The notes under the pieces were generated by a model that ran no database searches, was not told the origin of the DNA, and worked only from the letters and a program-made list of their open reading frames with translations. The translations under genes and the position numbers were made by a program. 49,346 bases of DNA from the NCBI GenBank assembly GCA_036574075.1, contig JAINCN010000053.1:1-49346 (forward strand). The letters are read 5' to 3'. The stretch is from Deltaproteobacteria bacterium (GTDB lineage: Bacteria > Desulfobacterota > Dissulfuribacteria > Dissulfuribacterales > UBA5754). Positions 4,871-19,499 of the stretch are shown here, in pieces; within the stretch, counting starts at the first letter, position 1; each line of letters begins with the position of its first letter.

Positions 4871-4950
4871 CTTGGGGAACCGCCCAGTGCGGACCCGCAC
4901 ATGTCAGGTGGTGTGTGGAGAGCCGGTTAGAGACCGGCCCTTATCCGATT
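4871..4950 (+). other. Possible group II intron 3' tail (domain V/VI-like)
   Basis: Reads CTTGGGGAACCGCC, then GTGCGGACCCGCAC, then CAGGTGGTGTG, followed by a GCCGGT/ACCGGC hairpin and TTATCCGATT. From memory this resembles the 3' terminal region of some bacterial group II introns: a domain-V-like stem ACCGCC/GGTGGT with a GTGCG/CGCAC upper hairpin, a small domain VI, and an ending in CCGAT. The apical loop is not GNRA and the lower stem is imperfect, so it would be a decayed or divergent copy. No reverse transcriptase is present. Its 3' end overlaps the last codons of the DUF499 gene on the other strand. Confidence 0.35.
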
Positions 4951-7067
4951 AGCCCCCTCTTCTCCGAGTCGCCTGTTTCCACAATCTCAAAAGTCAGATT
5001 CAGCTGATGCGCGGACTCCCTCATCGCTTTCAGTGCCGGATCGTTCTCACTCAACGCACCGTCGTCGGGGAGCACCATCTCGAACTGCACGCCGAGCCCG
5101 AGCCTTTTCAGGTTCATGCGCGCCGCAGGGCCGACAAAGCAGCGGAAGAGCTCGCTCCAGTTCTCGACCGGAACCTCACCGCGGACGACAAACCGGCGGA
5201 CTGTGCCCTTCACCCCGGGTTTCTTTACAGTTTCCGTTCCTGGACTGTCGCCGGGGGTCGTGCCAACACCCGTTCCGCCTTTGGTGCCCGCAGTCTCATC
5301 GCCGCCCTGGGCCTTCGCCGGTTCCGGCGTGAACGGCGGGATGATCCATACGCCGTCCTCGCTGGGGTCCAGGGACACCGATTGCTTGCAGTAACAAGTC
5401 TGAAGGTTCGAAGGGCTCGGGCCACGACCGATACCGACCAGCCCATCGGCGCACGCTTGCGCGAGCCCGGCAGTCACCGCCTCCTTGGCCGCGACCATGG
5501 GCTTGTCCGTGAACCGGAGGAAGGCCTCGACGGCATCCTTCAGGCGCAGTCCGCCTTCCTTCGGGATGAGACCCGTGCTCTCGAGCGTCACCGAGCCGAC
5601 GCGCCTAAGAATCCACTCCTCGTCCTCGACGAGCGTGGTCCACACGTAGCCCAGGTGTTCCTGGAAGCTCCGGCGCGCATCCGAGAGCGCGCACGGCTCC
5701 ACCTCTTGACCATGCACTCGAAGGACAACCGTGTAGGCGGGGCCCAGTGCCTCCAGCGCGGCCTTGCGCGCCGCCTCGAGGCGCTTCTTGAGATCTTCCT
5801 TTTGCTCCTCGTCGAGCTGATCCCAGTAGTCCTTGCGCACGCCCTCCAGGGCCGCCCGCTCACGGTGTGCCTGCCGCAGTTTGCTTAAGCCCCGGGAGGT
5901 TCCTGCCAGAAACAGTAGCGTGTTGCGGTACAGGCGGTCCTTTCCACCACACCGTGTGCTGATCGCCTTCACGCTCTCCGCGACGGCTTCCTTCACCCCT
6001 CCGTTCTCGTCCCAGGCGATTGACGGAGGAAGGACCAGCAAGGTGAGCGACTTCTGCTCCGGCAGGTCCTCGGCAGGGTTGACGATCACGCGCCAGGTCG
6101 CGCCCACAAGCGCTCCCTTCTGCGACTCGGCCCGCAGGTCCTCGAGGATCTCCTCCTCGAAGGTCTCCTTCGCCATCTGCTGGCGGTATTGGACGATAAG
6201 CTTGTTCAGCGTCGGCTTCGTGCCGAACCAGTAGCGCTTGCCGAGGCTCCCAGCGGTCGCGGTGTGGAGGTAGAAGCAGCGGTTCTCGAGCTCCAGCAAG
6301 GCGCCGTCGGTGTAATTCCAGTTGAGGCCGTGCTTCGAGCAGGCGAGCTTCAGGTCTTTCGAGCTGAACCCGCTGCGACCGCCCTGCCCGCCGAACGAGC
6401 CGAGCAGCATGGCGGACGCCAGCCCCTGCCCTATGGCCTCGCTTCGGTAATCACCTCCGCGTTCCTCGTCGAAGCTGCCGGCGTTGGACCGCTCGCCGAT
6501 CACGTCGGCCGCGGCAACGGACTGGTAAGCAGGGCCCCAGAGTCGCGTGAGGGCCGCCTGTAATGCGTCCACGGACCAGCGGATATGGCACGGCTGGATG
6601 AGGTGCTGGGTCTCGGTGCTTGCCTGCCGGCGCTTCCAGAGGTCGCCCACGATGCTCGCGAGCAGCCGCAGCACCCCGCGAGTCCGCTGGAAGTCGGGGT
6701 GGCTGCCCCAGCGGGTGTAGAGCGCGTCGATGAGAAGGGGATGGAATGGATAGGCGCGCTCGATCTGCTCGCGGTACGTGTTCTTTGCGGCCTCCGAGGG
6801 CACCTCGCCAGAGTGCGCCGCGTACATGCCCTGATAAACCTGGGCGACCTTCTTGGGATACCAGAAGTCAGGGGCCGGGCTTCCAGCCTGCACGCCATCT
6901 ATGGACTCGAACAGGCGCGCCCGGACGACCTCGTAGATCTCTTCGTCTGCGACCGGCTTGACGTCGGCCCCGAGGCGCTGGAAGCGCTTCTCCAGCGTCA
7001 TAAAGGCCTCCTGCCCCTTTTCGCTCTGGGCGACCTCGTACTTGCTCGCCGGAAGAGTAGCCACCAC
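4941..7067 (-). CDS. DUF499 family protein, N-terminal ATPase part missing
   Basis: 708 codons from a GTG. The segment VVVATLPASKYEVAQSEKG at the very start, PFHPLLIDALYTRWGS near 110 and RTRGVLRLLASIV near 127 are typical of the middle of DUF499 proteins, which are usually above 1000 residues and begin with a P-loop ATPase domain. Here no Walker A is present: the frame can be extended only about a dozen codons upstream before a TAG, and those codons (ETSNLNHPGA) still look like genuine family sequence. The gene is therefore 5'-truncated by a deletion or rearrangement next to herA. The C-terminus has a low-complexity G/T/P linker near residues 590-620 and then a short alpha/beta domain. DUF499 genes are recurrent members of defence islands; their biochemical role is not established. 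Truncation makes loss of function likely. Confidence 0.75.
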   Translation of the reverse strand: MVATLPASKYEVAQSEKGQEAFMTLEKRFQRLGADVKPVADEEIYEVVRARLFESIDGVQAGSPAPDFWYPKKVAQVYQGMYAAHSGEVPSEAAKNTYREQIERAYPFHPLLIDALYTRWGSHPDFQRTRGVLRLLASIVGDLWKRRQASTETQHLIQPCHIRWSVDALQAALTRLWGPAYQSVAAADVIGERSNAGSFDEERGGDYRSEAIGQGLASAMLLGSFGGQGGRSGFSSKDLKLACSKHGLNWNYTDGALLELENRCFYLHTATAGSLGKRYWFGTKPTLNKLIVQYRQQMAKETFEEEILEDLRAESQKGALVGATWRVIVNPAEDLPEQKSLTLLVLPPSIAWDENGGVKEAVAESVKAISTRCGGKDRLYRNTLLFLAGTSRGLSKLRQAHRERAALEGVRKDYWDQLDEEQKEDLKKRLEAARKAALEALGPAYTVVLRVHGQEVEPCALSDARRSFQEHLGYVWTTLVEDEEWILRRVGSVTLESTGLIPKEGGLRLKDAVEAFLRFTDKPMVAAKEAVTAGLAQACADGLVGIGRGPSPSNLQTCYCKQSVSLDPSEDGVWIIPPFTPEPAKAQGGDETAGTKGGTGVGTTPGDSPGTETVKKPGVKGTVRRFVVRGEVPVENWSELFRCFVGPAARMNLKRLGLGVQFEMVLPDDGALSENDPALKAMRESAHQLNLTFEIVETGDSEKRGLIG

Positions 7068-7241: not shown

Positions 7242-9023
7242 TCACGTGCTCCGGCGCGGCTTCAACTGTAGATTGTTGACCCGCTGAAACTCTACCGGGT
7301 CAGTAAACGCCGTGAAGAAGAGAGGCTTACCACTGAACGCCAAAGGGGACATGGGTCCTACCGCCATGAACGGGAACTCCTGGAGGTCCCGCCTCGGGAA
7401 GCTCTGTGGGTCCCGGAAGGACTGGTAAAGCTCCAAGGCCCGCTTGTCGCCACCCACGAAGTCCCGGAGACGGTCGAACTCCGTTCCCATTGCGAGGCCG
7501 AACCCAAAGGCCAGGATTCTCAGCTGCTGGAGGATCTCGTTGTCTAGGCCGCCCAGCGTCTGGCTGATGAAGAACCAGCCGATTCCATACTTACGCGTCT
7601 CTCGCACCGCCCTCCGCAGCAAAGAGCGCAGCCGATCCGCCTCCGAATCGTCCTCCAGCCTCCCACTGGGGGCGTGGCGATGCGCCTCGTCCAGCAGGAC
7701 GAGAACGTTTGCGCTCTGCTGCGTGCTCAGGCTTGACGTCGCCTGCGATACGAGGATGTTCAGTAGCTTGCCGAGGATGCGCCGCTGAAGCTCCTCGGAC
7801 CAGAAGCGCTGATTCCCTTGCCGGGAAATATCGATGACGATTACCGGCCTCGGCCCCGTAGCCCCGGCTGAGCCGAGAAGCATGTTGATGATGCCCGGCT
7901 GTTGATTCGAGTGGCTGAAGAGTCGCTGACGGTTCTGCCCAGCGCTGAAGAGCTGGCAGATTGGGGCCCACGACTGGTTGCAGACCTGTGCGAGGCGGTT
8001 CCGGTCACTCAGGAGTCGCTGAACGCGCTGCTGAAGTTCGCGTGCGCGCGCTGAGGAGTAAATGTATGTCGCGTTGTTCTGATCGGCGACTGCCCTCAAG
8101 GCGTCATTCAGCGCCTGCTGTGTGCCAAGGTTGTCCAGCCGGTGAGTGCCTTCCAGCGCATTCCTTATTACCTCGGCTGCCTTCCGCGAATTGTCGGCGG
8201 AGCGGCTCGGGATTCCGAGCTGTTCAAGGAAGCGCAATGACTGGAGCATCTCCTCGAATGTTGCCCAGTCATCCAATTGCAGGTCCCCGATTCGATAGAC
8301 CTGGATCGCTCGGCCCTGGCCACGAATCACCTGATCAAGTTGGAGCCCTTGTTGACCCACGCGCGTACCGGAGAGCTCAAGGGAGAATTCACCTTGGGGG
8401 TCGATCACAAGGATGCCCAGCTGCAGGTGGCGCGCATAAGCGCAGAGCATCATCTTCGCAAGCCCTGATTTCCCAGAGCCCGTCTTGCCGAACACACCCA
8501 GGTGGTATGCCTCGCCAGCGCCACCGGGTCCACTTCCGAAGTGCTTGAACCACATCGGGTAGAAGACGTCGTTCGCATATGCCCGCCCGAGATAGACGAT
8601 CTCGGAGCGGTACACCTCTAAGAGCCGGTCGAGGAGCGCCTGATCAACCCGATATACCCGAGTTCCCGTGGGAGGGACCATTCCCAGGACTTCAGGATCA
8701 AATCCGTTCGTCGACTCACGGAACGTCGCGCCAACGACGAGGTTCGCCGTCCGCGTGTCCTGACGGTTTGTGATCGGTGGGATCTCACCTGTGCGCTTCA
8801 CCAGGTTTCGGAACACCGAGTCTTCGTGCCAGCGGTTCTTCAGCTCGATGCCCACGATCTGCCCGACCGAGGTGATTCGTTGACCGTTCTGAACCGCCTC
8901 GAACGCCGTGAGCGCACCGACGAGCCGCTCCTCGGTCGCCTCCTGGAGTAGGTCGACGGTCAGTTCCGTGTTCGTCGAGGGGCTCCCGACGACCGCGATG
9001 TCTCTGCTTCGATCATTCGGCAT
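7242..9023 (-). CDS. herA: HerA-like DNA translocase/helicase (DUF87, FtsK/HerA superfamily)
   Basis: 593-residue hexameric-type ATPase expected to pump DNA with its NurA partner. Seen: N-terminal HAS-barrel-like region containing VGQIVGIE, Walker A GKTGSGKSGLAK near residue 180, LVIDPQGEF after it, Walker B VLVLLDEAHRHAP, then RETRKYGIGWFFISQ, a typical HerA sensor segment. The start at 9023 is set by GGAGG six bases upstream and by the TGATG overlap with the nurA stop, giving translational coupling. The order nurA-herA with overlap is the classical pair found in archaeal end resection and in bacterial phage-defence clusters. The neighbourhood (Res, DruA, DUF499) argues for defence rather than repair. 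Confidence 0.85.
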   Translation of the reverse strand: MPNDRSRDIAVVGSPSTNTELTVDLLQEATEERLVGALTAFEAVQNGQRITSVGQIVGIELKNRWHEDSVFRNLVKRTGEIPPITNRQDTRTANLVVGATFRESTNGFDPEVLGMVPPTGTRVYRVDQALLDRLLEVYRSEIVYLGRAYANDVFYPMWFKHFGSGPGGAGEAYHLGVFGKTGSGKSGLAKMMLCAYARHLQLGILVIDPQGEFSLELSGTRVGQQGLQLDQVIRGQGRAIQVYRIGDLQLDDWATFEEMLQSLRFLEQLGIPSRSADNSRKAAEVIRNALEGTHRLDNLGTQQALNDALRAVADQNNATYIYSSARARELQQRVQRLLSDRNRLAQVCNQSWAPICQLFSAGQNRQRLFSHSNQQPGIINMLLGSAGATGPRPVIVIDISRQGNQRFWSEELQRRILGKLLNILVSQATSSLSTQQSANVLVLLDEAHRHAPSGRLEDDSEADRLRSLLRRAVRETRKYGIGWFFISQTLGGLDNEILQQLRILAFGFGLAMGTEFDRLRDFVGGDKRALELYQSFRDPQSFPRRDLQEFPFMAVGPMSPLAFSGKPLFFTAFTDPVEFQRVNNLQLKPRRST

Positions 9024-10150
9024 CAGCTTCCTCCTTGTCCGCCTTCTGTGCGGTAGTTCTGCAAGCACAAGAGGGTCGCCTCCGTGTCAGCGGAGACCCC
9101 CACGGCATGCTGCGCAACAGTCTGCTCAATCACCGAGACACCTGCACCGAGGCTCTTGACCATGCGATCCGCCAGAAACAACGGGTACGGTTCCGTGACC
9201 GCCGGGCTGAACAGCTGCCGCTTGATTCCTTCCAGCACCATGGACAACTTGACCTGGCTTGCAGCAATGGGTGCGGTGACTTCGAGCCGCACGGCGGGCG
9301 CCCACCCGTAAGGCCGATAGAACACGACACGCATGTTTTCAATAGAGCGATTCATCTGTTGCTGGTACTCACGCGGACAATACTCCTCGGGCAAGTGGTA
9401 CTCAGTGTCCTCGCCGCCGAAATGGAAGATCGGAATCGGTGAGATGTACTCGTCAGGCTCGAGGATGATCGTCGCCAGCGTCTTCCCATCGGTCTCCGGG
9501 AGATCGTCCTCCTTGAGGAAGATCTGGAGCTCGTTCCTACCACTATATTTCGGCACAGCTACGGTTCGGTCGCTCGCGATCAAAGCAAGGAAACGGTCCA
9601 GAACATGTTGTTCGCTCCACCGCCTTTGGAACTCCTCGCGTAGGAGCGCCGGGGCCTCCCTGAAGCTCGTCAGCCCCTGGTTCAGATAGATGACGAAAAC
9701 GATGAAGGAACCGTCCAGGAGGACGAGGTCGTGCGGCGCCTCGGCGGCAAGCTCAAGCTCCATCGAGATCATCAGGCCGCGAAGGGCGTTCGTCACGTTC
9801 TTGCTGTGTTCGAAGCTGTTCACCCACAACCTGTGGTAGGGCTCCTGCCAATGCCTGCGAGCCTCTTTGGCGGTGCCTTCCACGGCCACCGCTGCGGCCG
9901 CGCACAGGTCGAGCGCCGTAAGGCGGTGGACCTGGTAGGAACCATCGATCCCCACAACGGAAGGCTCCCTGGTTACATCGAGGTCAGCTTTGCGCGCAAT
10001 CAAACCGGCCGACTGGACGCGCTGGCGGATGGTGCCCCGAGCTTGCCGAAGCCTGTTCAGGTGCGTGGATACCCGCTTAGCAACAGGTGTCGCCTGCGCG
10101 AGGAGGTCCCGCACCAGGGCATCGGGAAGGTCCGAGAAGGTGTCACCCAC
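9023..10150 (-). CDS. nurA: NurA domain nuclease
   Basis: 375-residue product with the NurA signature. The first metal-binding Asp is in SVVGIDGSYQVHRL near residue 67, and a second acidic strand DLVLLDGSFIVF is near 140, as in NurA 5'-3' exonuclease/endonucleases of RNase H-like fold. NurA acts with HerA on DNA ends. The gene starts with GTG at 10150, preceded by GGAG, and overlaps the druA stop by 8 bases; it ends on the herA start. The tight overlap on both sides supports a shared function with both neighbours. Function in phage defence is inferred from context. Confidence 0.8.
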   Translation of the reverse strand: MGDTFSDLPDALVRDLLAQATPVAKRVSTHLNRLRQARGTIRQRVQSAGLIARKADLDVTREPSVVGIDGSYQVHRLTALDLCAAAAVAVEGTAKEARRHWQEPYHRLWVNSFEHSKNVTNALRGLMISMELELAAEAPHDLVLLDGSFIVFVIYLNQGLTSFREAPALLREEFQRRWSEQHVLDRFLALIASDRTVAVPKYSGRNELQIFLKEDDLPETDGKTLATIILEPDEYISPIPIFHFGGEDTEYHLPEEYCPREYQQQMNRSIENMRVVFYRPYGWAPAVRLEVTAPIAASQVKLSMVLEGIKRQLFSPAVTEPYPLFLADRMVKSLGAGVSVIEQTVAQHAVGVSADTEATLLCLQNYRTEGGQGGS

Positions 10151-11306
10151 AGCAATTCTCCGTCTTCGACCAGATTAACCAGTCCTCTCTGGACCATGAC
10201 CTGAATCGTTCATCCCAGGAGGCACGTGGTAGCATCCACCGATCCCGAAAGTACTCGAAGAGGCGAGTTTCCGGATGCCTATACCACCGAAGATGGGCGT
10301 GTTCGCCGCGCAAAAACTCGCGCGTATTCTCAGCCAGTGGGATCACAAAGATCTCGCGCTCAATACCGTGGTAGATCCAGTTACTTGAGAGGCCCAACGC
10401 CGCGAGACACTTCTTGATCACCTCACGTCGATTGCGGAAGCCCGTTCCCCAACGTTCTTGTTTCGCAGTCGGCTTACAATGCTTCTCTGCAAACTCCGTG
10501 ATCGCGCCGTACAGGCCGTTCGAGAAGTGGAACTCGCCCGACCCCTTGGTGAAACCAACGTTTTGGTAGAGCAACCTGTCTTCGAACCGAATTCTGTTGT
10601 AGACAGAAGACCGTCCAAGCGCTGAGGCAGTTGTGATGAGCGCAAGACGTCCATCGTGAATTCTCCGCCTAATGACCGTTCGTGTTCCTCCGTACTTTTT
10701 CTTAAATGCACGGCGGACTGTATCGCTTGCGGCAAGCATCGCTACGAGTTTGCCACATAAGAGGAAGGAATACGGGGGAACCGCCCCGAGCACGAACGCG
10801 TCCATAACGTGCCGCAGGCGCTTTTCTCGGTCAGAGGGCGTCCAGCCGATCCACTTATCGCGGGGGCCGAGGCTGTAGACTGGGTCTCCCAGTCCAATAA
10901 CGCCTATGAGCTTCCCATTGGTATCGTCGACGACCAGGAATCGCAGGCGCCTACCATAACCGGCAGAGACCGGGATGCTCCAGTGCAATTTGGCATACCG
11001 GAAGAGGAGTTCTTCCTCCGATCCTGGTTCAACCTCGACCAAGCGAGGAGACATGCGCATAGGATCTACCTCATGGCCCGATGCAACGAAGCGTAGGAGA
11101 TCCTTCTCTATGCGAAAAAGGCCCTCTCGCGCCCGCTCGATCCTGTACTTGACGGCGGTTTCATGGAGCTTTCGGATTCTCTCTTTGGACAGATCCTCTG
11201 GAGGCAGGACCTGTCCATCTTGGATTCGGAACCCTTGGGCCAGAAGAGATCGGATGATTTGCTCTCGCAGGTCTACAGTGTTGATTCCCGTATTTGAGCT
11301 ATGCAT
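10143..11306 (-). CDS. druA: DUF4338 protein, DruA of Druantia-type defence
   Basis: 387 residues. Characteristic stretches are LIGVIGLGDPVYSLG, DKWIGWT followed by EKRLRHVMDAFVLGAVPP, LLCGKLVAMLAAS, AFKKKYGG and TTASALGRSSVYNRIRF, which match the DUF4338/DruA family. In Druantia type I, DruA accompanies DruB-E; its mechanism is not known. None of druB-E is seen here. Instead it sits between a type III-like Res subunit and nurA. The ATG at 11306 overlaps the res stop by 8 bases. A longer in-frame extension runs antiphase through res and was rejected. Some DUF4338 proteins are transposon-associated, but there is no transposase here. Confidence 0.8.
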   Translation of the reverse strand: MHSSNTGINTVDLREQIIRSLLAQGFRIQDGQVLPPEDLSKERIRKLHETAVKYRIERAREGLFRIEKDLLRFVASGHEVDPMRMSPRLVEVEPGSEEELLFRYAKLHWSIPVSAGYGRRLRFLVVDDTNGKLIGVIGLGDPVYSLGPRDKWIGWTPSDREKRLRHVMDAFVLGAVPPYSFLLCGKLVAMLAASDTVRRAFKKKYGGTRTVIRRRIHDGRLALITTASALGRSSVYNRIRFEDRLLYQNVGFTKGSGEFHFSNGLYGAITEFAEKHCKPTAKQERWGTGFRNRREVIKKCLAALGLSSNWIYHGIEREIFVIPLAENTREFLRGEHAHLRWYRHPETRLFEYFRDRWMLPRASWDERFRSWSREDWLIWSKTENCCG

Positions 11307-14055
11307 CCGTGAGGTCCGCAAGCCGCGTTGGGGTAGTCTCGTCAAATTTCGGTTGATCAATTCGCTTGTACCGCCAGCGGGTGCCGGTCTTGGTGCTGAT
11401 CCGCTCACACCAGATGCGCATGGCCTCGTCCTTGGCTGCCGTGCCTTCCCACACCCGACCTTTCGTCTCGATGATCCAGTTGACCTCGCCTTCCGTTGTT
11501 TTCTGCACCACGACCCAGTCCGGATGATAGAAGCCGATCGCGCCAGTGGGCTTAAGGTAGTCGATGCGGAACTGCGTGCCTGATTCGCCCTGTTCCGTAG
11601 TGCCCAGGGCCGCAAACCGCAGCACATCAGACGCCTTAGAGTCCAGGAACTCGGCGAAGCGACGTTCGAAGTCGTTATACGTTGCCACGAAGTTGAAGAC
11701 CGTCTTCTTCGCCACAAGCGGCGGCAAGTTGCGGCGCCAGCTGAACGGTTTCGTTTCAGAGAGCTTGAAGTCCGCACGCTCGAACTCGATGGCGCGCCGA
11801 TCCAGGGTCAGCTCCGCGATCTTTCGGGCAAGGTACTTGGCGATGCCTTCCTGTATCTCCAGGCGTGAGAGGTGAGAGCGGATAGGTTCACTATCCAGGT
11901 CTACGGCCCGACCGAAACAGCGGGTTGCGACGTAGGCTCGCACCGCCGGATACAGCTCGGCGAATCGGCTGGGGAGTTTCGCGCGATCGATCACTTTGTT
12001 CGTGATGGAGCCGAGCAAATCCTGGGGCTTAGGAAGTTCGCCGGCAGTGATGTCGGCCTGGTGGACTTCCGTCTCGGTCGTGGCGAATTCAAGCCTCAAC
12101 CTGACCCTGTAGACCTCCTCCAAGTCCTCTTGCTCGAAGATGGGATCGAGCGCCGCAGCGTCGAAGTCGGAGAGCTTGCGGATGTCGTGCACGAGCTGTG
12201 GCTTGGTCAGGGGAATAGCAATGTCGTAGGCGAGGCGCTCCTTGACGGGCTCGATGATGACCGGCTTGGGAGGGTCGGTCCTGGTCGTCGTCACGCCGAC
12301 GCCTTCGGTTTCGAGTTGTGTACGGAGGACGTTCAGCAGGTTGCGCGTGCCCAGTACTTCCAGCGTCTGGGTCTTCTCCGGCCCGATCCGAGCCTTGTTC
12401 ATCAGCCGAAGGCCGCGTCCGATGACCTGCTCCGGCAGGATCTCGGCCTTCGCGGTGAACGGGCGCAGGCCGAGAACCACGGTCACGTTGCGAACGTCCC
12501 AGCCCTCTCGCAGCATCATGACGCTCACAATGGCTTTGATCTTGTTGTTGTCGATGTCGCGGGCCGCTTCGCGAGCCACTTCGAGATCGCTCTTCGTGAT
12601 CTCACCGGCGGCATCGGTATGGATGACCAAGACTTCGGATTCCTTGAAGCCGAACTCCCTGGTCTTCCACAGGTACTCGCCGATGGCGTCCGCGTAAACG
12701 TTTTTCTCCGCCATGACGAAGAGAACGGGCTTCGTACCGAGGCGCTTGTAAACGTCCCAGTGCTCCTTCCATCGCTGGACGGCCGCGCGGAGCCAGTAGC
12801 CGTACTTCTCGGCCACGTTGTCCTTCGTCACGTGGTCCGGGTCGCTCTTGGGCTGCTTTGGGTCGTCCTCCTTGGTCACGATGAGCGGTGCCTTGACGAT
12901 TCGATCCTCCACGGCCTGCGCGAGCGGGTAGTCGCAGACGACCCACGGGAAGTACATCCCGTTCTGGTCCTTTGGTGTGGCTGAGAAATCGAGCCACAGG
13001 GCGAGTCCGTTCGGAAGCGTCCGGTGGATCGCCAATAGCGACTGACTCCAGGCGAGGCCCTCGTCGTGAACGTGGTGGGCCTCGTCGTTCAGGACCACGA
13101 GGTCCTTGAGCCCCTTCACCCGTTCCAGCATCGAACGCCGGCCGGAGGCGGCGAGATCCTGCGCCGGTTTCTTACCGAGAAGTGCCTCGACCGCGTTCTG
13201 CGGCGTCCACTCTTGATCGCGCGACTCGTAGAGCTGGTGAATGTTAGTGAGGAAGAGGTTGCAGGACGCGTCGGGCTCGCTCGACTCGCCGCGGAGAATG
13301 ACCTTGGGCTCGAACGGCCGCCACTCCGGGGGAACGAGCGGAAGCTCTCTGAAGATCCGATTGTTGGCGAAGTCCTTCTCCAGCCGCTGATAGACGATCA
13401 CGTTCGGGGCCACGATGAGAAAGTTGGTCGAGAGCTCGGAATCGGCCACGCGCTTTTTGTGGAAGAACGACCAAACGATCGCCATGGCCATCACCCAGGT
13501 CTTACCCGAGCCGGTGGCCATCTTGAAGGCAAAACGCCGCAAGTCCTCGGGCGGCAGATCCTGAACACCCTCGGCGTCCAGCTCCGGCACGTAACGGCGG
13601 ATCTGCCGCCGCCCATCCATGGTGGTCTGGAAGACGATGTTGTCCGAAAGAAGGTCCCTTTTGAACTTCGTCGCGTGGGTCTGGATGAGCTGCTGCACGT
13701 CCCGCTCGCCCGCGATCTCCACGAGCCAGACCAGGGTCTCGATGGCCTCTCGCTGGCAGAAGTAGTAGCGGAAGGGTACGCCGAAGCAGGGCACCTCGTG
13801 GTCTTCCTCGAACCAGTACTCGAAAAGCCGCCGCGTCACGTCGGAAGCGCCTTCATAGCCACCTTCGCGCCACGCATCCACCGCCGCGCGGATCTTCGGG
13901 ACCAGCAGCAACTGGCTCGGCCGGCGCCCCTCCGCGATGCTCCACCCGGTCGGCGCGCTCTCGTCCTTGACCAGGTGCTGGGTCGGTTTCTCCCACGGCC
14001 GGCGATCCGGGATCTCCGGCAGATCCTTGTCGTATTGAATAACAGCCTTGGCCAT
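11299..14055 (-). CDS. res: Type III-like restriction enzyme Res subunit (DEAH translocase with nuclease domain)
   Basis: 918 residues. SF2 helicase core: Walker A MATGSGKTWVMA near 180-190, DEAH box LNDEAHH near 323-329, LDFSATPKD (motif III-like), SVMMLREGWDVRNV (motif V) and EQVIGRGLRLM (motif VI). The C-terminus carries a PD-(D/E)XK-like site, HPDWVVVQ followed by NWIIETKGR. This matches the Res/BPTD_3080-type restriction family, which translocates or switches on ATP and cuts unmethylated DNA. The start at 14055 was chosen for GGAGGTG upstream and for lying 2 bases after the mod stop; it also follows conserved use of MAKAVIQYDKDLPEIPD. Works with Mod for recognition. Confidence 0.88.
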   Translation of the reverse strand: MAKAVIQYDKDLPEIPDRRPWEKPTQHLVKDESAPTGWSIAEGRRPSQLLLVPKIRAAVDAWREGGYEGASDVTRRLFEYWFEEDHEVPCFGVPFRYYFCQREAIETLVWLVEIAGERDVQQLIQTHATKFKRDLLSDNIVFQTTMDGRRQIRRYVPELDAEGVQDLPPEDLRRFAFKMATGSGKTWVMAMAIVWSFFHKKRVADSELSTNFLIVAPNVIVYQRLEKDFANNRIFRELPLVPPEWRPFEPKVILRGESSEPDASCNLFLTNIHQLYESRDQEWTPQNAVEALLGKKPAQDLAASGRRSMLERVKGLKDLVVLNDEAHHVHDEGLAWSQSLLAIHRTLPNGLALWLDFSATPKDQNGMYFPWVVCDYPLAQAVEDRIVKAPLIVTKEDDPKQPKSDPDHVTKDNVAEKYGYWLRAAVQRWKEHWDVYKRLGTKPVLFVMAEKNVYADAIGEYLWKTREFGFKESEVLVIHTDAAGEITKSDLEVAREAARDIDNNKIKAIVSVMMLREGWDVRNVTVVLGLRPFTAKAEILPEQVIGRGLRLMNKARIGPEKTQTLEVLGTRNLLNVLRTQLETEGVGVTTTRTDPPKPVIIEPVKERLAYDIAIPLTKPQLVHDIRKLSDFDAAALDPIFEQEDLEEVYRVRLRLEFATTETEVHQADITAGELPKPQDLLGSITNKVIDRAKLPSRFAELYPAVRAYVATRCFGRAVDLDSEPIRSHLSRLEIQEGIAKYLARKIAELTLDRRAIEFERADFKLSETKPFSWRRNLPPLVAKKTVFNFVATYNDFERRFAEFLDSKASDVLRFAALGTTEQGESGTQFRIDYLKPTGAIGFYHPDWVVVQKTTEGEVNWIIETKGRVWEGTAAKDEAMRIWCERISTKTGTRWRYKRIDQPKFDETTPTRLADLTDA

Positions 14056-14057
14056 GG

Positions 14058-14480
14058 CTATTTCACCTCCACGTCGAAGGCTTGCGATGTGTCGTTGCCG
14101 AAGATGTCGATCACCTTGATCAGGATGCGGTACTTGCCCGGCTTCTCGTAGGTGTGTGGGTCGGAGACGAGCGGGAGCTTGCGTTCCTTGCGGGTCCGGT
14201 AGGCCACCCACCCCTGCATGAAGGTGTCGTTCTGGAAGTCCCAGTCCACCGCCCAGTAGTCGATGTAATCCGACCACTTCTTGACCTTGCTGCGCACGTC
14301 CTCAGGAATGAGATCGGCATTGGGGGTGGCGAAGTCCTTGAGTTCGACTTGAACGGTCAGCTTCTTGGGCTCACTGATTTTCGCCTCGAAGTACGCGAGC
14401 TCGAAGAATTGCACGTCTCCCTTGGCAACGGCCTGCTGCTCCATGACCTCGCGGGGGATCTGGAGGAGCACAAGAGTTTC
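14058..14480 (-). pseudogene. Out-of-frame C-terminal part of Mod
   Basis: About 139 codons (start LVLLQIPREVMEQQAVAKGD, end GNDTSQAFDVEVK) continue the methyltransferase in another frame. The switch falls near 14468-14480; restoring one base after KGVKLL would fuse VLLQIPREV to the upstream part without gap. It includes an immunoglobulin-like closing segment GKYRILIKVIDIFGND. It has no start of its own with a good ribosome binding site and ends 2 bases before res. It is a real part of mod split by a one-base deletion, or by a sequencing error. Confidence 0.7.
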
Positions 14481-15946
14481 ACGCCTTTCTGCCGGGCGAT
14501 CTCGTGCATGGGGCCGCCCTTGCGGACGTCGTTGTTGGGACCAGCAAGCCCCATTTCCCACTCCCAGCCCAGAACGTGCAGCTCGGTCTGCTTGAGGGCG
14601 ACACACTCCTCCAGCGCCTGGTTGACCTCGTCGATGGTCACCGGCGCGTCCACCGCGCCGATATGGACCATGGCCTTGCCCTTCTTGCCATGGAGGTGCA
14701 CCATCCCCGCCACGGGCTGGGCGCCGTAGAGCTTGAGGATGAAGGCCAGGTATTCGTAGAAGCGGCGCTCGACGCCTGTCTTGTCCTTCGGGTCGCCGAA
14801 CGTCACGCCCTGCCAGTACTGGCGCTCGTACTTGCCGAGGTTCAGGACCTCGAAGGGCTTGCAGTTCTCGATACCGAGGAGCCGCTTGCGGGTGACGTGG
14901 ATCGCCCAGCGCCCCAGGTCGCAGCCGATCCAGCGCCGGCCGAGTTTTTCGGCCACGGCCAGGGTCGTGCCGGAGCCGCAGAACACATCCGCCACGAGCT
15001 CACCCGGATTAGAGGACGCCTTCAAGATCCGACGGAGAATGCTCTCGTTCTTTTGTGTTGCGTACCCGGTCTTCTCCTGCGAAAAGCTCTTGATCTGAAT
15101 TGAATCGAGCGAGTCTTCCCCCTTCAGTTCGAACTCGAAGGGGTTTGCATTCCACACATCCTCGACGGGGTAACCCTGGCCGGTAGGCTTCTCGCCTCCT
15201 CGCCTCACGTATCCGGGCGGGTACGGAATGTACTCCTTGTTGAAGGTGAATTGGCCAGGCGTCTTCACGTAGAACAGGATCATGTCGTGATTCCGAATCC
15301 AGTTTTTTGCAGCACTTTTGTAGCCAGAGATCCACCCGATGCGCCAGACGATCTCTCGATGGAAGGACTCAGCACCGAAGACTTCGTCCATGATTGCCTT
15401 GACGTAGTGGCCGACCGTCGCGTCAAGATGAACGTAAATTGAACCTGTTGGCGCTAGCAGCTCGCGCATGAGAACGAAGCGCTCCCTCATCATGTCGAGG
15501 TAGCTAACAACCCCAGCACCCCAGGTGTCTCGATAAGCTTTCTCCTCGAGAATCGACTGTTCCTTCTCAACCTCAAGGCCCGCTTCACCGATTTCGGTAG
15601 TGAACGAAAAATCTGCCCCAGTGGCGAAGGGCGGATCGATATAGATGAGGTCGATCTTGCCGGCGAACTTCTCCAGCAGCGAGCCCATCACCAGCAGGTT
15701 GTCGCCCCAGATCAGCTTGTTCTTCCAGCCTGCCTCGAAGGTGTCGCCTTCCTTGCCTTCGTAGATGTCAAAGAGGGTCGGCTGCTTTTCTCGTTCTTTG
15801 CGAGCTTCGCGCGTTGCCCGGCTCTCATTGACGGTCTCGATCACCTGGAAGGGAAGATTCACTCGCGGCACTTCCTTGAGCGTGCCGTCGTCGTTGTACT
15901 TGCCGGGCCAGACCAGCTCGGTCTTGGTGATTTCGATCTTCGCCAT
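14357..15946 (-). CDS. mod: Type III-like DNA methyltransferase Mod (frameshifted near its end)
   Basis: Adenine-N6-type methyltransferase and specificity subunit for the adjacent Res. The catalytic motif IV DPPFATG lies near residue 95 and the AdoMet motif I DVFCGSGTT near 335, the beta-class order of type III Mod proteins, with the target recognition region between. The start at 15946 (MAKIEITKTELVWPGKY) follows GGAGGAG; an ATG 15 bases earlier lacks this. The catalytic part is complete, but after KGVKLL (near 14475) the frame is lost, and the reading continues with about 35 foreign residues. The genuine C-terminus lies in another frame down to 14058. No simple-sequence repeat is present at the shift, so phase variation by slippage is unlikely. 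Confidence 0.85.
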   Translation of the reverse strand: MAKIEITKTELVWPGKYNDDGTLKEVPRVNLPFQVIETVNESRATREARKEREKQPTLFDIYEGKEGDTFEAGWKNKLIWGDNLLVMGSLLEKFAGKIDLIYIDPPFATGADFSFTTEIGEAGLEVEKEQSILEEKAYRDTWGAGVVSYLDMMRERFVLMRELLAPTGSIYVHLDATVGHYVKAIMDEVFGAESFHREIVWRIGWISGYKSAAKNWIRNHDMILFYVKTPGQFTFNKEYIPYPPGYVRRGGEKPTGQGYPVEDVWNANPFEFELKGEDSLDSIQIKSFSQEKTGYATQKNESILRRILKASSNPGELVADVFCGSGTTLAVAEKLGRRWIGCDLGRWAIHVTRKRLLGIENCKPFEVLNLGKYERQYWQGVTFGDPKDKTGVERRFYEYLAFILKLYGAQPVAGMVHLHGKKGKAMVHIGAVDAPVTIDEVNQALEECVALKQTELHVLGWEWEMGLAGPNNDVRKGGPMHEIARQKGVKLLCSSRSPARSWSSRPLPRETCNSSSSRTSRRKSVSPRS

Positions 15947-15957
15947 GGGTCTCCTCC

Positions 15958-18813
15958 TCACTCATCTCCTTTGATGATACCGTCTCTGCGGCAGAGCATC
16001 CGCAGGTCGCATTCCTTGCAGATTCCCGGTTCCGGTGGCACTGTCACCGCAAACTCCCGCGCCTGGATGCGGCGAACGGTCTCGTCGAAGTGGCGGCCGG
16101 CCTCCTCGACGCGCCTCGGGTCGTAGGGCAGGACCATCAGCGCGTCCTGCTTGCGGGGTTCCGAAGTCCAGTAGAGCAACAGCCGGTCCACGTGCCGGCC
16201 ATGACGCTGCTCCAGGATGTACGCGTAGATGCAGAGCTGGCGCTCGTAGGCAGCGATGAGGTTCGGGTTCTCTTTCGGTCGCGGCGAGGTCTTGAAATCG
16301 AGCAGCTCGAGCTTGCCATCGTGACCGAGCAGCAGGTCTACTTTCCCGGTCAGGATGTATCCGTCCTTCTCCAGGGAGACATCCACTTCGGTCTGGATCA
16401 CCCGGCGCATCTCGTCGCGGTTCTGGCGGAAGTAATTCAGTACCTGGGTGAACGCCGACTCCTTGGCAGGGTCTCCGATTGGGCGCACGTCGGACAGAGT
16501 AAGGAACCGGAACGTTCGTTCGAAAAGCTCACGGATGCACGATTGCGTAAGCGTCTCGAGCTTGCCGTCGAGGACGACGCGGTGGATCTCCTCGATGGTC
16601 TGGTGCACGAGCTGACCAAAGAAGATCACCGCCGAGCGCGACGGCGCGAAGTCGTACTCGCGAAAGAACTGGTACTGGCGCGGGCAAGTCTCGTAAATCT
16701 TCAGATCACCCGTGAAGCTGTAGGACCGCTTGACCGGTAGGCGCTCGCGCAGGGGGAAGCGTTGCGCGGCCAGGAGATCCTTCTGCACGTAAGGCCACTG
16801 GGGAAGCCCCTGCCAAATGGGAGCGAAATAGTCCTTCGGCCGTTCGTGCGCTGTAAGAACCAAGACTTTTTGCGCTCTTGAAAAAGCGACGTAGTGCAGG
16901 CGCATCCGGTCGAACCCGGTGATCCGGTTCTCCGGCTCGAAGGGCGGGCGGTGGTAGTAGGGGCCCAGGTCCCGGTCGACCGACTTGGGACTCGAAAGCT
17001 GCGTGCAGAGCGAACCCACCACCACGATCGGGAATTCGAGCCCCTTGGCCTGATGAATGGTCATCACCTGGACGTGGCCCTTGGGGAAGGGCTGGTCCGG
17101 GTCCTCATACTCATTGATCCCCCCATCGTAGAGAAGCCTGAGGAAGCTGTTGAACAGATGCAACCGCAAGCTCTCGCGGTTGCGGTGGGTGACGACCGTG
17201 TAGTGGTAGTAGCTCTGGAACGCGTTCAGGAGCTGCGAGAAGATCGCCAGGTTGCGGGCCGCGTTCTCGTTCTTGGCCGCGCCGGCGAAGGGCTCCAGGG
17301 CCAGCAGACGATAGAGGTAATCCGCCGGCCGGACGTCGAGCGTCGCACCTTCTTCGAGGGCCCCAATCTCCGAGGTCCAGTCTTGGAGTGCCCTGGCAAG
17401 CGGGTGTGGTGATGCGAACCGACGCCCCAGATGAATGAGGGCCTCGTCCACGTATCGGGCCAGGTCTGCGACCGCCCCGGCTACCACACCCCGGCCGTCA
17501 CCGTGCCAGCCGAAGATGACGGCGAAGCAGGCCACGACGTCGCGGATCTCTTCGTTCTCGAAGTAGGCGCGGGCGCGTGGGCAGAACGCAGGGATGCCGC
17601 GCTTGGCGAGGGCCTCGAGATACTCGCTACTGTGCTCCTGGCGGACGCTGTGAAGGAGTAGCGCGACCTGGCTGTAGTCTTCGATGATACGATTCTCCTT
17701 GAGATATGCGACAAGCTCAGCAAGTCGCCGGGCCTCATCACGCCGGTCGCGTCCCCAGATGGCAAAGACCGCCGGATACTCCGGGTGCTCCGTCTTCGGG
17801 TCGGCCTTGATGGTCTTGTCGTAGCGGAAGGGTGCACCACCTTGGTTGGACCAGTCGGCCGAGGCCATCCATCGGTCGTAGCGTTCGATGATGTTCGGGT
17901 GCGAGCGGTAGTTGGTCGTCAGCTTGACGATTTTGCAGCCGGGCATGCGCTGCGGGAACTCCAGGATGTTGCGGACCGTTGCACCCCGGAACCGGTACAG
18001 GCTCTGGTCCTCGTCGCCGACGACGCACAGGTTCCTGGTCTTCTCGGTGAGTTTCAGCAGGAGCTGTTCCTGGACGTAGTTCGTATCTTGGTACTCGTCC
18101 ACGAGGACGTACTTGATCCGGCCCGTCAGGGCCTCCGTGACATCGGGGTCCGCCAGAAGGTCGTGGACGAGCCTCTGGAGGTGGGCGAAGTCAACGCGGT
18201 TGTTCTCGAACAGTGTGCGCCGGTAGGCGGCATAGGCCTCCCCTATGCTCCGCAAAAAGCTATTGCCTGAGGCGAGAAGCGCCTGGGGATCGACCAGCTC
18301 TTCCGTGATCTTGTCGAGGTACGCGCGGACCCCTTCGATGGCGGTCCACCGTGTCTTCCAGCGCCCCAGGTAGACGCCGTCCCGTGCTTGCCCGACAACC
18401 TCCTCAAAATGCTCGAACAAGAAGAGGAGCTGGGTCAATTCATCCAAAGTTTCGTAGTTGTGCCCCAGGGGCGTCTTATGTCGGTAACGCTGAAGCAGGC
18501 TGTTGCACAGCCCGTGAATCGTTGAGACCGTGAGTTCGGACAGGTCGCCCTTGTAGCCGATCCGTCGAGCCGCGGCGGCCATGCGGTCGCGCATCTCGAA
18601 GGCGGCCTTCTCCGTGAAGGTGCAGAGGATCACTTCGTTTGGAGCGGCCCGGCCGAGGGCAAGAAGGTTCAACGCCCGAAGGACGATGCTGTAGGTCTTC
18701 CCCGAACCGGGACCGGCGACGACGAGCAGGGGACCTTCCACGTGCCCTACCACCGACCGTTGAGCGTCGTTCAAGTCCGGGTAGTGCTCAAGGATGGCGG
18801 GAGCAATGGTCAT
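15958..18813 (-). CDS. UvrD-like helicase fused to Fe-S PD-(D/E)XK nuclease
   Basis: 951 residues. SF1 helicase: Walker A GPGSGKT at 34-40, FTEKAAFEMRDR (motif Ia), VDEYQDTNY near 238 (motif II), GDEDQSLYRFRGA (motif III), TTNYRSHP (motif IV), TIHQAKGLEFPIV (motif V) and HYVAFSRAQ (motif VI). The C-terminal third is a RecB/AddB-type nuclease: GKVDLLL, ELLDFKTS and AYERQLCIYAYIL carry the acidic, Lys and Gln positions. A Cys in ETCPRQYQFF plus three Cys in CKECDLRMLC fit the AddB/Cas4-type 4Fe-4S cluster. It unwinds and degrades DNA ends. It starts on the radC stop (ATGA overlap) and ends 11 bases before mod. Distinct from housekeeping UvrD/PcrA, which lack the nuclease. Confidence 0.9.
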   Translation of the reverse strand: MTIAPAILEHYPDLNDAQRSVVGHVEGPLLVVAGPGSGKTYSIVLRALNLLALGRAAPNEVILCTFTEKAAFEMRDRMAAAARRIGYKGDLSELTVSTIHGLCNSLLQRYRHKTPLGHNYETLDELTQLLFLFEHFEEVVGQARDGVYLGRWKTRWTAIEGVRAYLDKITEELVDPQALLASGNSFLRSIGEAYAAYRRTLFENNRVDFAHLQRLVHDLLADPDVTEALTGRIKYVLVDEYQDTNYVQEQLLLKLTEKTRNLCVVGDEDQSLYRFRGATVRNILEFPQRMPGCKIVKLTTNYRSHPNIIERYDRWMASADWSNQGGAPFRYDKTIKADPKTEHPEYPAVFAIWGRDRRDEARRLAELVAYLKENRIIEDYSQVALLLHSVRQEHSSEYLEALAKRGIPAFCPRARAYFENEEIRDVVACFAVIFGWHGDGRGVVAGAVADLARYVDEALIHLGRRFASPHPLARALQDWTSEIGALEEGATLDVRPADYLYRLLALEPFAGAAKNENAARNLAIFSQLLNAFQSYYHYTVVTHRNRESLRLHLFNSFLRLLYDGGINEYEDPDQPFPKGHVQVMTIHQAKGLEFPIVVVGSLCTQLSSPKSVDRDLGPYYHRPPFEPENRITGFDRMRLHYVAFSRAQKVLVLTAHERPKDYFAPIWQGLPQWPYVQKDLLAAQRFPLRERLPVKRSYSFTGDLKIYETCPRQYQFFREYDFAPSRSAVIFFGQLVHQTIEEIHRVVLDGKLETLTQSCIRELFERTFRFLTLSDVRPIGDPAKESAFTQVLNYFRQNRDEMRRVIQTEVDVSLEKDGYILTGKVDLLLGHDGKLELLDFKTSPRPKENPNLIAAYERQLCIYAYILEQRHGRHVDRLLLYWTSEPRKQDALMVLPYDPRRVEEAGRHFDETVRRIQAREFAVTVPPEPGICKECDLRMLCRRDGIIKGDE

Positions 18814-19499
18814 AGCAGGCCCGCCTTTCGGAAGCTGAAGACTGCGTCAACCGAGACAACCAGGTGGTCAACGATCTTGATCTGGACTGTCTCCGCTGCG
18901 AGCACCAAAGCGCGAGTCAGGAGCTTGTCCTGTTCGGTGGGTTCGACCTTACCGTTGGGGTGATTGTGGGCTAAGACGAGGGCCGCTGCCCCCCTCCGCA
19001 ATGCGGACTCAACCACCCGGCGCGGATAGACGGCTGCCCGGTCGATGGTCCCTTCCTCGAGTCGCTCAATCCCATCGCGGAGGAGGCGTCGTCCAGAGTC
19101 GAGATACGCTACTTCGAAGACCTCGTTGCGCAGGGCCCCGATCCGGGTGCGCCAGGTGATCTCGAGCAGGCTTTCGTCGGTAACTGACCCTTTGCCTTCG
19201 GCGGACTGCTGCAGGTAGAGCGTGGCGGCAGCCCGGATGATCCGTAGCGCGACTGGGGCTACCGAACCGATTCCCTTCACTTCGCGCAGCTCGTCGATGG
19301 GGGCGTCCAAGATCGCTCGCAGACTCCCGAACCGCTCGATCAAGGCCTTCGCGGGCCGTTTCACGTCGGACCGAGGAATCGCCAGCGTGAGAAGTAGTTC
19401 CACAACCTCGTGGTCGGCAAAGCCCTCGAGACCGGCCTTCATGAAGCGTTCACGAAGCCGCTTCCTGTGTCCGAGGTAGTGGAGATCAGACGCGCTCAT
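18810..19499 (-). CDS. radC: RadC/JAB domain protein
   Basis: 229 residues. N-terminal helix-hairpin-helix region (LREVKGIGSVAPVALR) and C-terminal JAB/MPN metalloprotease-like domain with the metal motif AHNHPNGKVEPTEQD. RadC family proteins have no firmly established activity; they are over-represented in mobile and defence islands. The ATG at 19499 begins MSASDLHYLGHRKRLRERF, the usual RadC N-terminus. The stop overlaps the helicase-nuclease start by 4 bases, so it is the first visible gene of the island operon. Confidence 0.9.
   Translation of the reverse strand: MSASDLHYLGHRKRLRERFMKAGLEGFADHEVVELLLTLAIPRSDVKRPAKALIERFGSLRAILDAPIDELREVKGIGSVAPVALRIIRAAATLYLQQSAEGKGSVTDESLLEITWRTRIGALRNEVFEVAYLDSGRRLLRDGIERLEEGTIDRAAVYPRRVVESALRRGAAALVLAHNHPNGKVEPTEQDKLLTRALVLAAETVQIKIVDHLVVSVDAVFSFRKAGLL

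Follow-up and report, generated by a model that had tools for sequence, protein, structure and literature searches.

DruA beside NurA and HerA: a recurrent three-gene cassette adjoining a restriction operon

The window, i.e. the whole stretch of 49,346 nucleotides analysed here (contig JAINCN010000053.1 of assembly GCA_036574075.1, from a bacterium of the order Dissulfuribacterales), carries a druA gene between res, which encodes a type III restriction subunit, and nurA. DruA is the signature gene of the Druantia type I system, and the locus raises the question of which protein it works with in other settings. The sequence-only reading of this DNA had proposed that DruA is a module pairing with different helicases, and that Res stands in here for the large helicase DruE. 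A survey of further genomes showed that the constant partner of DruA is not Res. It is the pair NurA–HerA, a nuclease and a DNA translocase, since both were present in 38 of 40 loci that had been chosen by DruA alone.

Genomic partners of DruA

Altogether, 84,980 species genomes were scanned with an alignment of five close DruA proteins, selection being made on DruA only. The scan yielded 44 close loci, mostly metagenome-assembled and including one viral contig; the flank was long enough to be judged in 40 of them. NurA and HerA were found directly with DruA in 37 of these and in one more (L076), where the neighbour was read as NurA by Pfam. The DruA–NurA–HerA loci spanned 15 named phyla. The gap from druA to nurA was short (−8 to 37 bp), and most loci had few or no other close co-directional genes, the typical arrangement being a bare three-gene cassette. 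The only extra families that recurred beside it were Res and a UvrD-type protein (UvrD–PDDEXK) of 916 amino acids. Res was located directly upstream of druA in the window, L040 and L045, with overlapping genes in the window and L045, and with a gene gap in L041. The UvrD-type protein lay beside DruA in L043, L044, L050 and L051, and as a fragment in L042.

Divergent DruA proteins (30-35% identity) kept the trio in permuted order. NurA–HerA–DruA was observed in L035, L037, L083, L085 and L087 (in L037 the NurA call is based only on a conserved motif and on resemblance to L083), HerA–DruA–NurA in an archaeon (L084), and DruA–X–NurA–HerA in L036. Neither NurA nor HerA was found beside the short proteins of the DruA family DUF4338 or beside phage DUF4338 proteins.

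The linkage was also seen in a reciprocal search of 395 genomes spread over the phylum of the window. DruA scored above the threshold of 200 bits in seven genomes; NurA and HerA were adjacent in six, and in the seventh (G215) the gene lay at a contig end. The NurA profile matched exactly five of the 395 genomes, all of them among the seven with DruA and all adjacent to it, a coincidence with a probability of about 3e-10 when treated as a plain draw that ignores kinship. Res occurred in 47 of the 395 genomes. Its close homologues (52-78% identity), in G033, G299, G254 and G128, belonged to operons with RadC, UvrD and Mod of variable completeness, and in none of these four was DruA next to Res. 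G128 possessed both modules, with NurA–HerA–DruA about 330 kb away from the Res operon.

A tree was calculated from 62 DruA proteins and topology constraints were judged by the approximately unbiased (AU) test. DruA proteins linked to NurA/HerA formed a clade of 43 rows (100/96), and those of Druantia I (E. coli, P. putida, Nitrosococcus, Meiothermus and an Omnitrophota locus with DruD) a separate clade (100/99); further lineages outside both clades were again linked to NurA/HerA. Holding all NurA/HerA-linked DruA proteins together against Druantia I was weakly rejected (AU p=0.0245, in a tree where long branches play a part), which lends weak support to the view that Druantia I DruA may be nested inside the NurA/HerA-linked lineages. 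Different phyla were mixed in the tree, a pattern that indicates horizontal transfer. A clade of their own for Res-adjacent DruA proteins had been named as a check by the sequence-only reading; holding the four of them together was strongly rejected (AU p=1e-55), while a grouping of the window, L040 and L041 was not (p=0.26). The DruA protein of the window was separated with full support from the short, partly transposon-associated DUF4338 proteins, as the sequence-only reading required, and its assignment to the transposon type was rejected.

Several points of that reading were thus borne out. Adjacency of Res extends beyond the genome of the window, to L040 and L045, and DruA occurs widely outside Druantia I and beside different helicases, namely Res, UvrD–PDDEXK (L043, L050, L051) and a DruE-like protein (L049). 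What did not hold is the pairing itself, as the constant partner is NurA–HerA, nor did the role of Res as a substitute for DruE, given that NurA–HerA was present in 38 of 40 loci and that close Res homologues belong to DruA-free operons. The survey of neighbouring genes, the search for Res and the AU test all led to rejection of Res as the partner of DruA.

Pairwise identities were compared over 30 complete cassettes (Spearman). Identities of NurA and HerA correlated at 0.86, those of DruA with either of them only at 0.43-0.49. In L039, a locus of the cultured Pyrinomonas methylaliphatogenes K22 with NurA/HerA of type B, DruA is 76% identical to that of the window and NurA only 33%. Judged by this co-variation and the swap in L039, NurA and HerA evolve as a unit and DruA is exchangeable. 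A fragment of the other HerA subtype lies directly behind the intact herA of L039 (14119-14624) and is a scar of NurA–HerA replacement.

Some loci carried further genes next to druA. In L049 (934-10092), a DruE-like helicase of 1703 amino acids with an MrfA Zn-binding domain (DruE3 320 bits) was located directly upstream of DruA–NurA–HerA; this single occurrence is possibly an intermediate between Druantia and the cassette. In L064 (2076-14044), an HmaB-like methylase, an AAA_15 ATPase and a full HmaC directly preceded DruA–NurA–HerA. In L041 (7801-14894), GmrSD and an ORC-CDC6-like/kinase gene took the place of NurA–HerA beside DruA. The viral contig L031, which also carries terminase and ParB-like genes, encodes a DruA protein 74% identical to that of the window and cut at its C-terminal end (7569-8540).

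Two modules in the window

Gene order and coordinates in the window are as follows.

18810..19499, minus strand: RadC-like protein, first gene of the restriction module (Pfam RadC E=1e-30); conserved in L243 and L246
15958..18813, minus strand: UvrD-type helicase with a C-terminal PD-(D/E)XK nuclease, restriction module (Pfam UvrD and PDDEXK_1); conserved with RadC, Mod and Res in L243 and L246
14058..15961, minus strand: mod, N6/N4 DNA methylase with a frameshift near 14470; N-terminal part 14357-15961, C-terminal part in another frame to 14058
11299..14055, minus strand: res, type III restriction subunit (ResIII E=1.8e-18, RE_endonuc E=1e-5)
10143..11306, minus strand: druA, DUF4338/DruA protein of 387 amino acids (Pfam PF14236 E=7.6e-121; PADLOC DruA1 380 bits), with a predicted GNAT (Mom-like) fold
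9023..10150, minus strand: nurA, RNase H-fold nuclease (Pfam NurA E=8e-6) with D69, E131, D146 and D328 present; GTG start
7242..9068, minus strand: herA, hexameric-type DNA translocase (Pfam DUF87 E=7e-12), with Walker A (GKTGSGKS) and Walker B (LLDEAH) intact
4941..7067, minus strand: HmaC/DUF499 ATPase behind herA, N-terminally truncated (covers only positions 241-721 of the 941 of the PADLOC HmaC profile)

Among complete relatives, L038 is nearest to the cassette of the window (DruA 76%, NurA 88% and HerA 85% identical); it has a phosphoenolpyruvate carboxylase gene upstream and no Res. Because Res homologues lie in DruA-free operons and the L038 cassette stands without Res, the window carries two modules in tandem, RadC–UvrD–Mod–Res and DruA–NurA–HerA. 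The junction of the modules appears at two or more points in the DruA tree (window/L040 and L045), and for this reason joining was probably favoured, though not required. An operon of RadC, UvrD/PDDEXK, a Schlafen/AlbA-type or sacsin-like ATPase, Mod and Res without DruA was recurrent (window 14357-19499; L243, L244, L245, L246).

The two overlaps described by the sequence-only reading were both confirmed at 8 bp: the ATG of druA at 11306 overlaps the res stop codon, and the GTG start of nurA lies within the end of druA, whose stop codon is at 10143. Co-translation of druA with res and nurA is inferred from these overlaps. The absence of other Druantia genes was likewise corroborated; DruA was the only Druantia component that PADLOC recognized among the operon proteins, and no DruE was detected in the whole genome. 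DruA is intact and is the sole copy in the genome, and a search of 16 further genomes of the order yielded no complete DruA.

HerA behind NurA, the mod frameshift and the truncated DUF499/HmaC protein had not appeared in the earlier reading. The frame change in mod was revealed by tblastn with Mod of L040 and L041, its C-terminal part being well conserved in the other frame, and is due either to real decay or to an assembly error. Mod adjacent to Res with an endonuclease domain identifies a type III restriction-modification (R-M) module, though one that has a frameshifted Mod and is separable from DruA–NurA–HerA. The truncated HmaC/DUF499 gene directly behind herA is probably a remnant; among the window proteins scanned it was the only Hma component, HmaA and HmaB not being found together with it.

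Predicted folds of the three proteins

Sequence search yielded no solved structural relatives of DruA. The AlphaFold2 (AF2) model of DruA (predicted local distance difference test score, pLDDT, 90.5) showed a GNAT fold. Its top match by VIA-align was Mom of phage Mu (Z 10.6 over 181 residues, root-mean-square deviation 4.4), followed by a match of Z 9.6; the matches listed were GNATs and Mom, with Z of 8.7-10.6. Foldseek likewise returned mostly GNAT-type proteins at the top, with weak E-values (best 0.013). That DUF4338 is a GNAT domain has already been stated for DndF fusions (PMC10853773), and Mom acylates adenine in DNA at N6 (PMC7824862).

A connection with Mom was also obtained through the short DUF4338 proteins. 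Run over the 395 genomes, the Pfam Mom profile picked up these proteins at positions that the DruA profile had also marked, and four or five scored above its cut-off. Between short DUF4338 proteins and Mom, hhalign gave E=2.5e-4 but a low probability of 43%; profiles of short and long DruA aligned with each other at E=2e-16. Counterparts of the Mom residues HY, Arg101, Ser114 and Tyr149 are present in the short proteins. The S124A mutant of Mom is labelled inactive in PDB 8bv8; the equation of S114 with S124 rests on a start that is 10 residues longer. The link to Mom is thus supported at sequence level independently of the fold.

The AF2 model of NurA (pLDDT 89.3) matched best to NurA of Sulfolobus and Thermococcus in the PDB (Z 21.2 and 20.6), and also to TdpB (Z 13.9) and to Deinococcus NurA (Z 12.2). 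Residues D69, E131, D146 and D328 were invariant in 35 relatives. The solved structures nearest to HerA were anti-phage HerA proteins and TdpA. The cassette accordingly places a HerA with Walker motifs beside a NurA fold with RNase H-type acidic residues, the combination that defines a HerA–NurA motor nuclease. HerA–NurA complexes move along double-stranded DNA and degrade it (PMC12977600, PMC9960219), and the co-variation of 0.86 is consistent with a physical hexamer–dimer complex of the two proteins. With other partner enzymes, HerA forms anti-phage systems (PMC11291478).

Possible function and related systems

On balance it seems fairly probable that DruA, NurA and HerA form a functional unit directed against invaders, with HerA–NurA as the part that degrades DNA and DruA as the part that marks or recognizes it. 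The hexameric translocase HerA and the dimeric nuclease NurA would together act as a motor nuclease, pumping double-stranded DNA and degrading it, an activity proposed because of the biochemistry of the two families and the intact catalytic motifs. DruA would supply the discrimination between self and non-self, most likely by marking DNA chemically and less likely by recognizing marked or abnormal DNA, and NurA–HerA as the effector would destroy the invading DNA. Marking is considered likelier than binding because DruA can be swapped between NurA/HerA subtypes and is one of the Mom-like GNATs. A defence role is proposed on the grounds that some loci are associated with R-M, Hma, GmrSD and DruE-like genes, that the spread is patchy and that there is kinship with Druantia I.

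Several observations weigh against this proposal. Marking is its weakest step, because long DruA proteins seem to be without two conserved Mom residues: aligned via the short proteins, V172 and G185 occupy the positions of Arg101 and Ser114, in a region where the alignment is uncertain. The Mom profile (PF25680) gave no match to DruA of the window or to long DruA, and a direct profile comparison between long DruA and Mom was not significant. Defence genes showed no clear enrichment among 95 genes around stand-alone cassettes, the most frequent matches including only generic kinases, and these cassettes sit among ordinary genes and not in defence islands. Furthermore, work on HerA–NurA in archaea and Deinococcus has treated it as machinery of DNA repair (end resection) (PMC9960219, PMC12977600).

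It is possible, though less probable, that DruA is a recognition subunit and not an enzyme, its Mom-like GNAT fold binding DNA (ends, modified bases or replication intermediates) and loading NurA–HerA. This would agree with the apparent lack of the Mom Arg and Ser in long DruA and with the RD-W-GW motif, which is invariant in DUF4338 and absent from Mom; DNA recognition would also suit both settings of DruA, since in Druantia I it stands beside the helicase DruE. The weak co-variation of DruA and the swap in L039 oppose the tight protein interface expected in this case. Taken further, marking by DruA would make the cassette a self-contained system resembling R-M, in which the Mom-related GNAT acylates self DNA and the translocating nuclease destroys unmodified DNA, Druantia I having been derived by swapping NurA–HerA for DruB–E; this extension is offered as a tentative suggestion.

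Cooperation of Mod–Res with DruA–NurA–HerA as one system, Res making the breaks from which NurA–HerA degrades, is doubtful. The arrangement recurs in three lineages, represented by the window, L040 and L045, with overlapping genes in two of them, so that joining looks selected, and the UvrD–PDDEXK neighbours would also create ends; however, each module is found alone, Mod of the window is frameshifted and the modules of G128 lie far apart. The cassette is unlikely to be a horizontally moving DNA-repair (end-resection) module with only incidental ties to defence. In archaea and Deinococcus, NurA–HerA is indeed tied to the processing of double-strand breaks (PMC9960219), and the ordinary genes around stand-alone cassettes would fit such a role, but the very patchy spread (7 of 395 genomes in the phylum, and no complete DruA in the 16 other genomes searched of the order), the mixing of phyla in the DruA tree, the joining of a subset of loci to R-M, Hma, GmrSD or DruE-like genes and the occurrence of DruA otherwise in Druantia I argue against it. 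Pairing of DruA with Res in place of DruE is very improbable, as the adjacency and gene overlaps in a few loci are outweighed by the absence of Res from most loci including L038, the DruA-free Res operons, the scattered Res-linked DruA proteins and the presence in L049 of both a DruE-like helicase and NurA–HerA, which are not alternatives there.

In the open-access literature searched, no description of DruA–NurA–HerA was found, nor one treating NurA, HerA and Druantia together, and a description elsewhere is possible. The linkage of DruA with NurA–HerA points to a three-gene DNA-targeting system that has so far been undescribed. Present in at least 15 phyla, it offers a far simpler setting in which to study DruA, and the Mom-like fold provides a first concrete hypothesis for this protein, namely acylation of DNA bases or recognition of altered DNA. 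If the anti-invader proposal is true, bacterial NurA–HerA gains a role beyond DNA repair. The results also suggest an origin of Druantia I from a cassette of the DruA–NurA–HerA type.

Compared with Druantia type I (DruABCDE), the window shares a DruA that is homologous over its length, close in the tree and about 37-38% identical to the DruA of plasmid-borne Druantia I; it differs in having NurA–HerA and no DruB, DruC, DruD or DruE. TdpAB, a phosphorothioate-linked anti-phage motor nuclease, resembles the pair in both components, TdpA being among the closest solved relatives of HerA and TdpB matching the NurA model. TdpAB is paired with a DNA-modifying enzyme that makes phosphorothioate, whereas DruA has a GNAT fold. 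The HerA–NurA complex that resects DNA ends in archaea and Deinococcus consists of the same two families, and the NurA fold is close to that of Sulfolobus and Thermococcus (Z 21); in contrast, sequence identity of the window NurA is 12-15% and the cassette is patchily distributed. The archaeal/Deinococcus complex is not known to include DruA. DUF4297–HerA and Sir2–HerA also combine a hexamer-type HerA with a partner enzyme in one operon, a nuclease in DUF4297–HerA (PMC11291478); the window differs by its nuclease, NurA with an RNase H fold, and by the additional GNAT-fold DruA.

Mom of phage Mu, a member of the GNAT superfamily, is the top fold match of DruA, and the short DUF4338 proteins reach the Pfam Mom cut-off; long DruA differs from it by extra N- and C-terminal parts, besides the motif and residues discussed above. 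DUF4338 proteins of 390-480 amino acids were also observed in viral contigs (L119-L147), some of which are T4-like with clamp-loader and gp46/47-type neighbours, and some of which carry Mom-like genes with the HY motif nearby. Predicted proteins of giant viruses (Faunusvirus, Yasminevirus and Dasosvirus) strongly resembled the DruA model in the fold search, with E-values down to 3e-16.

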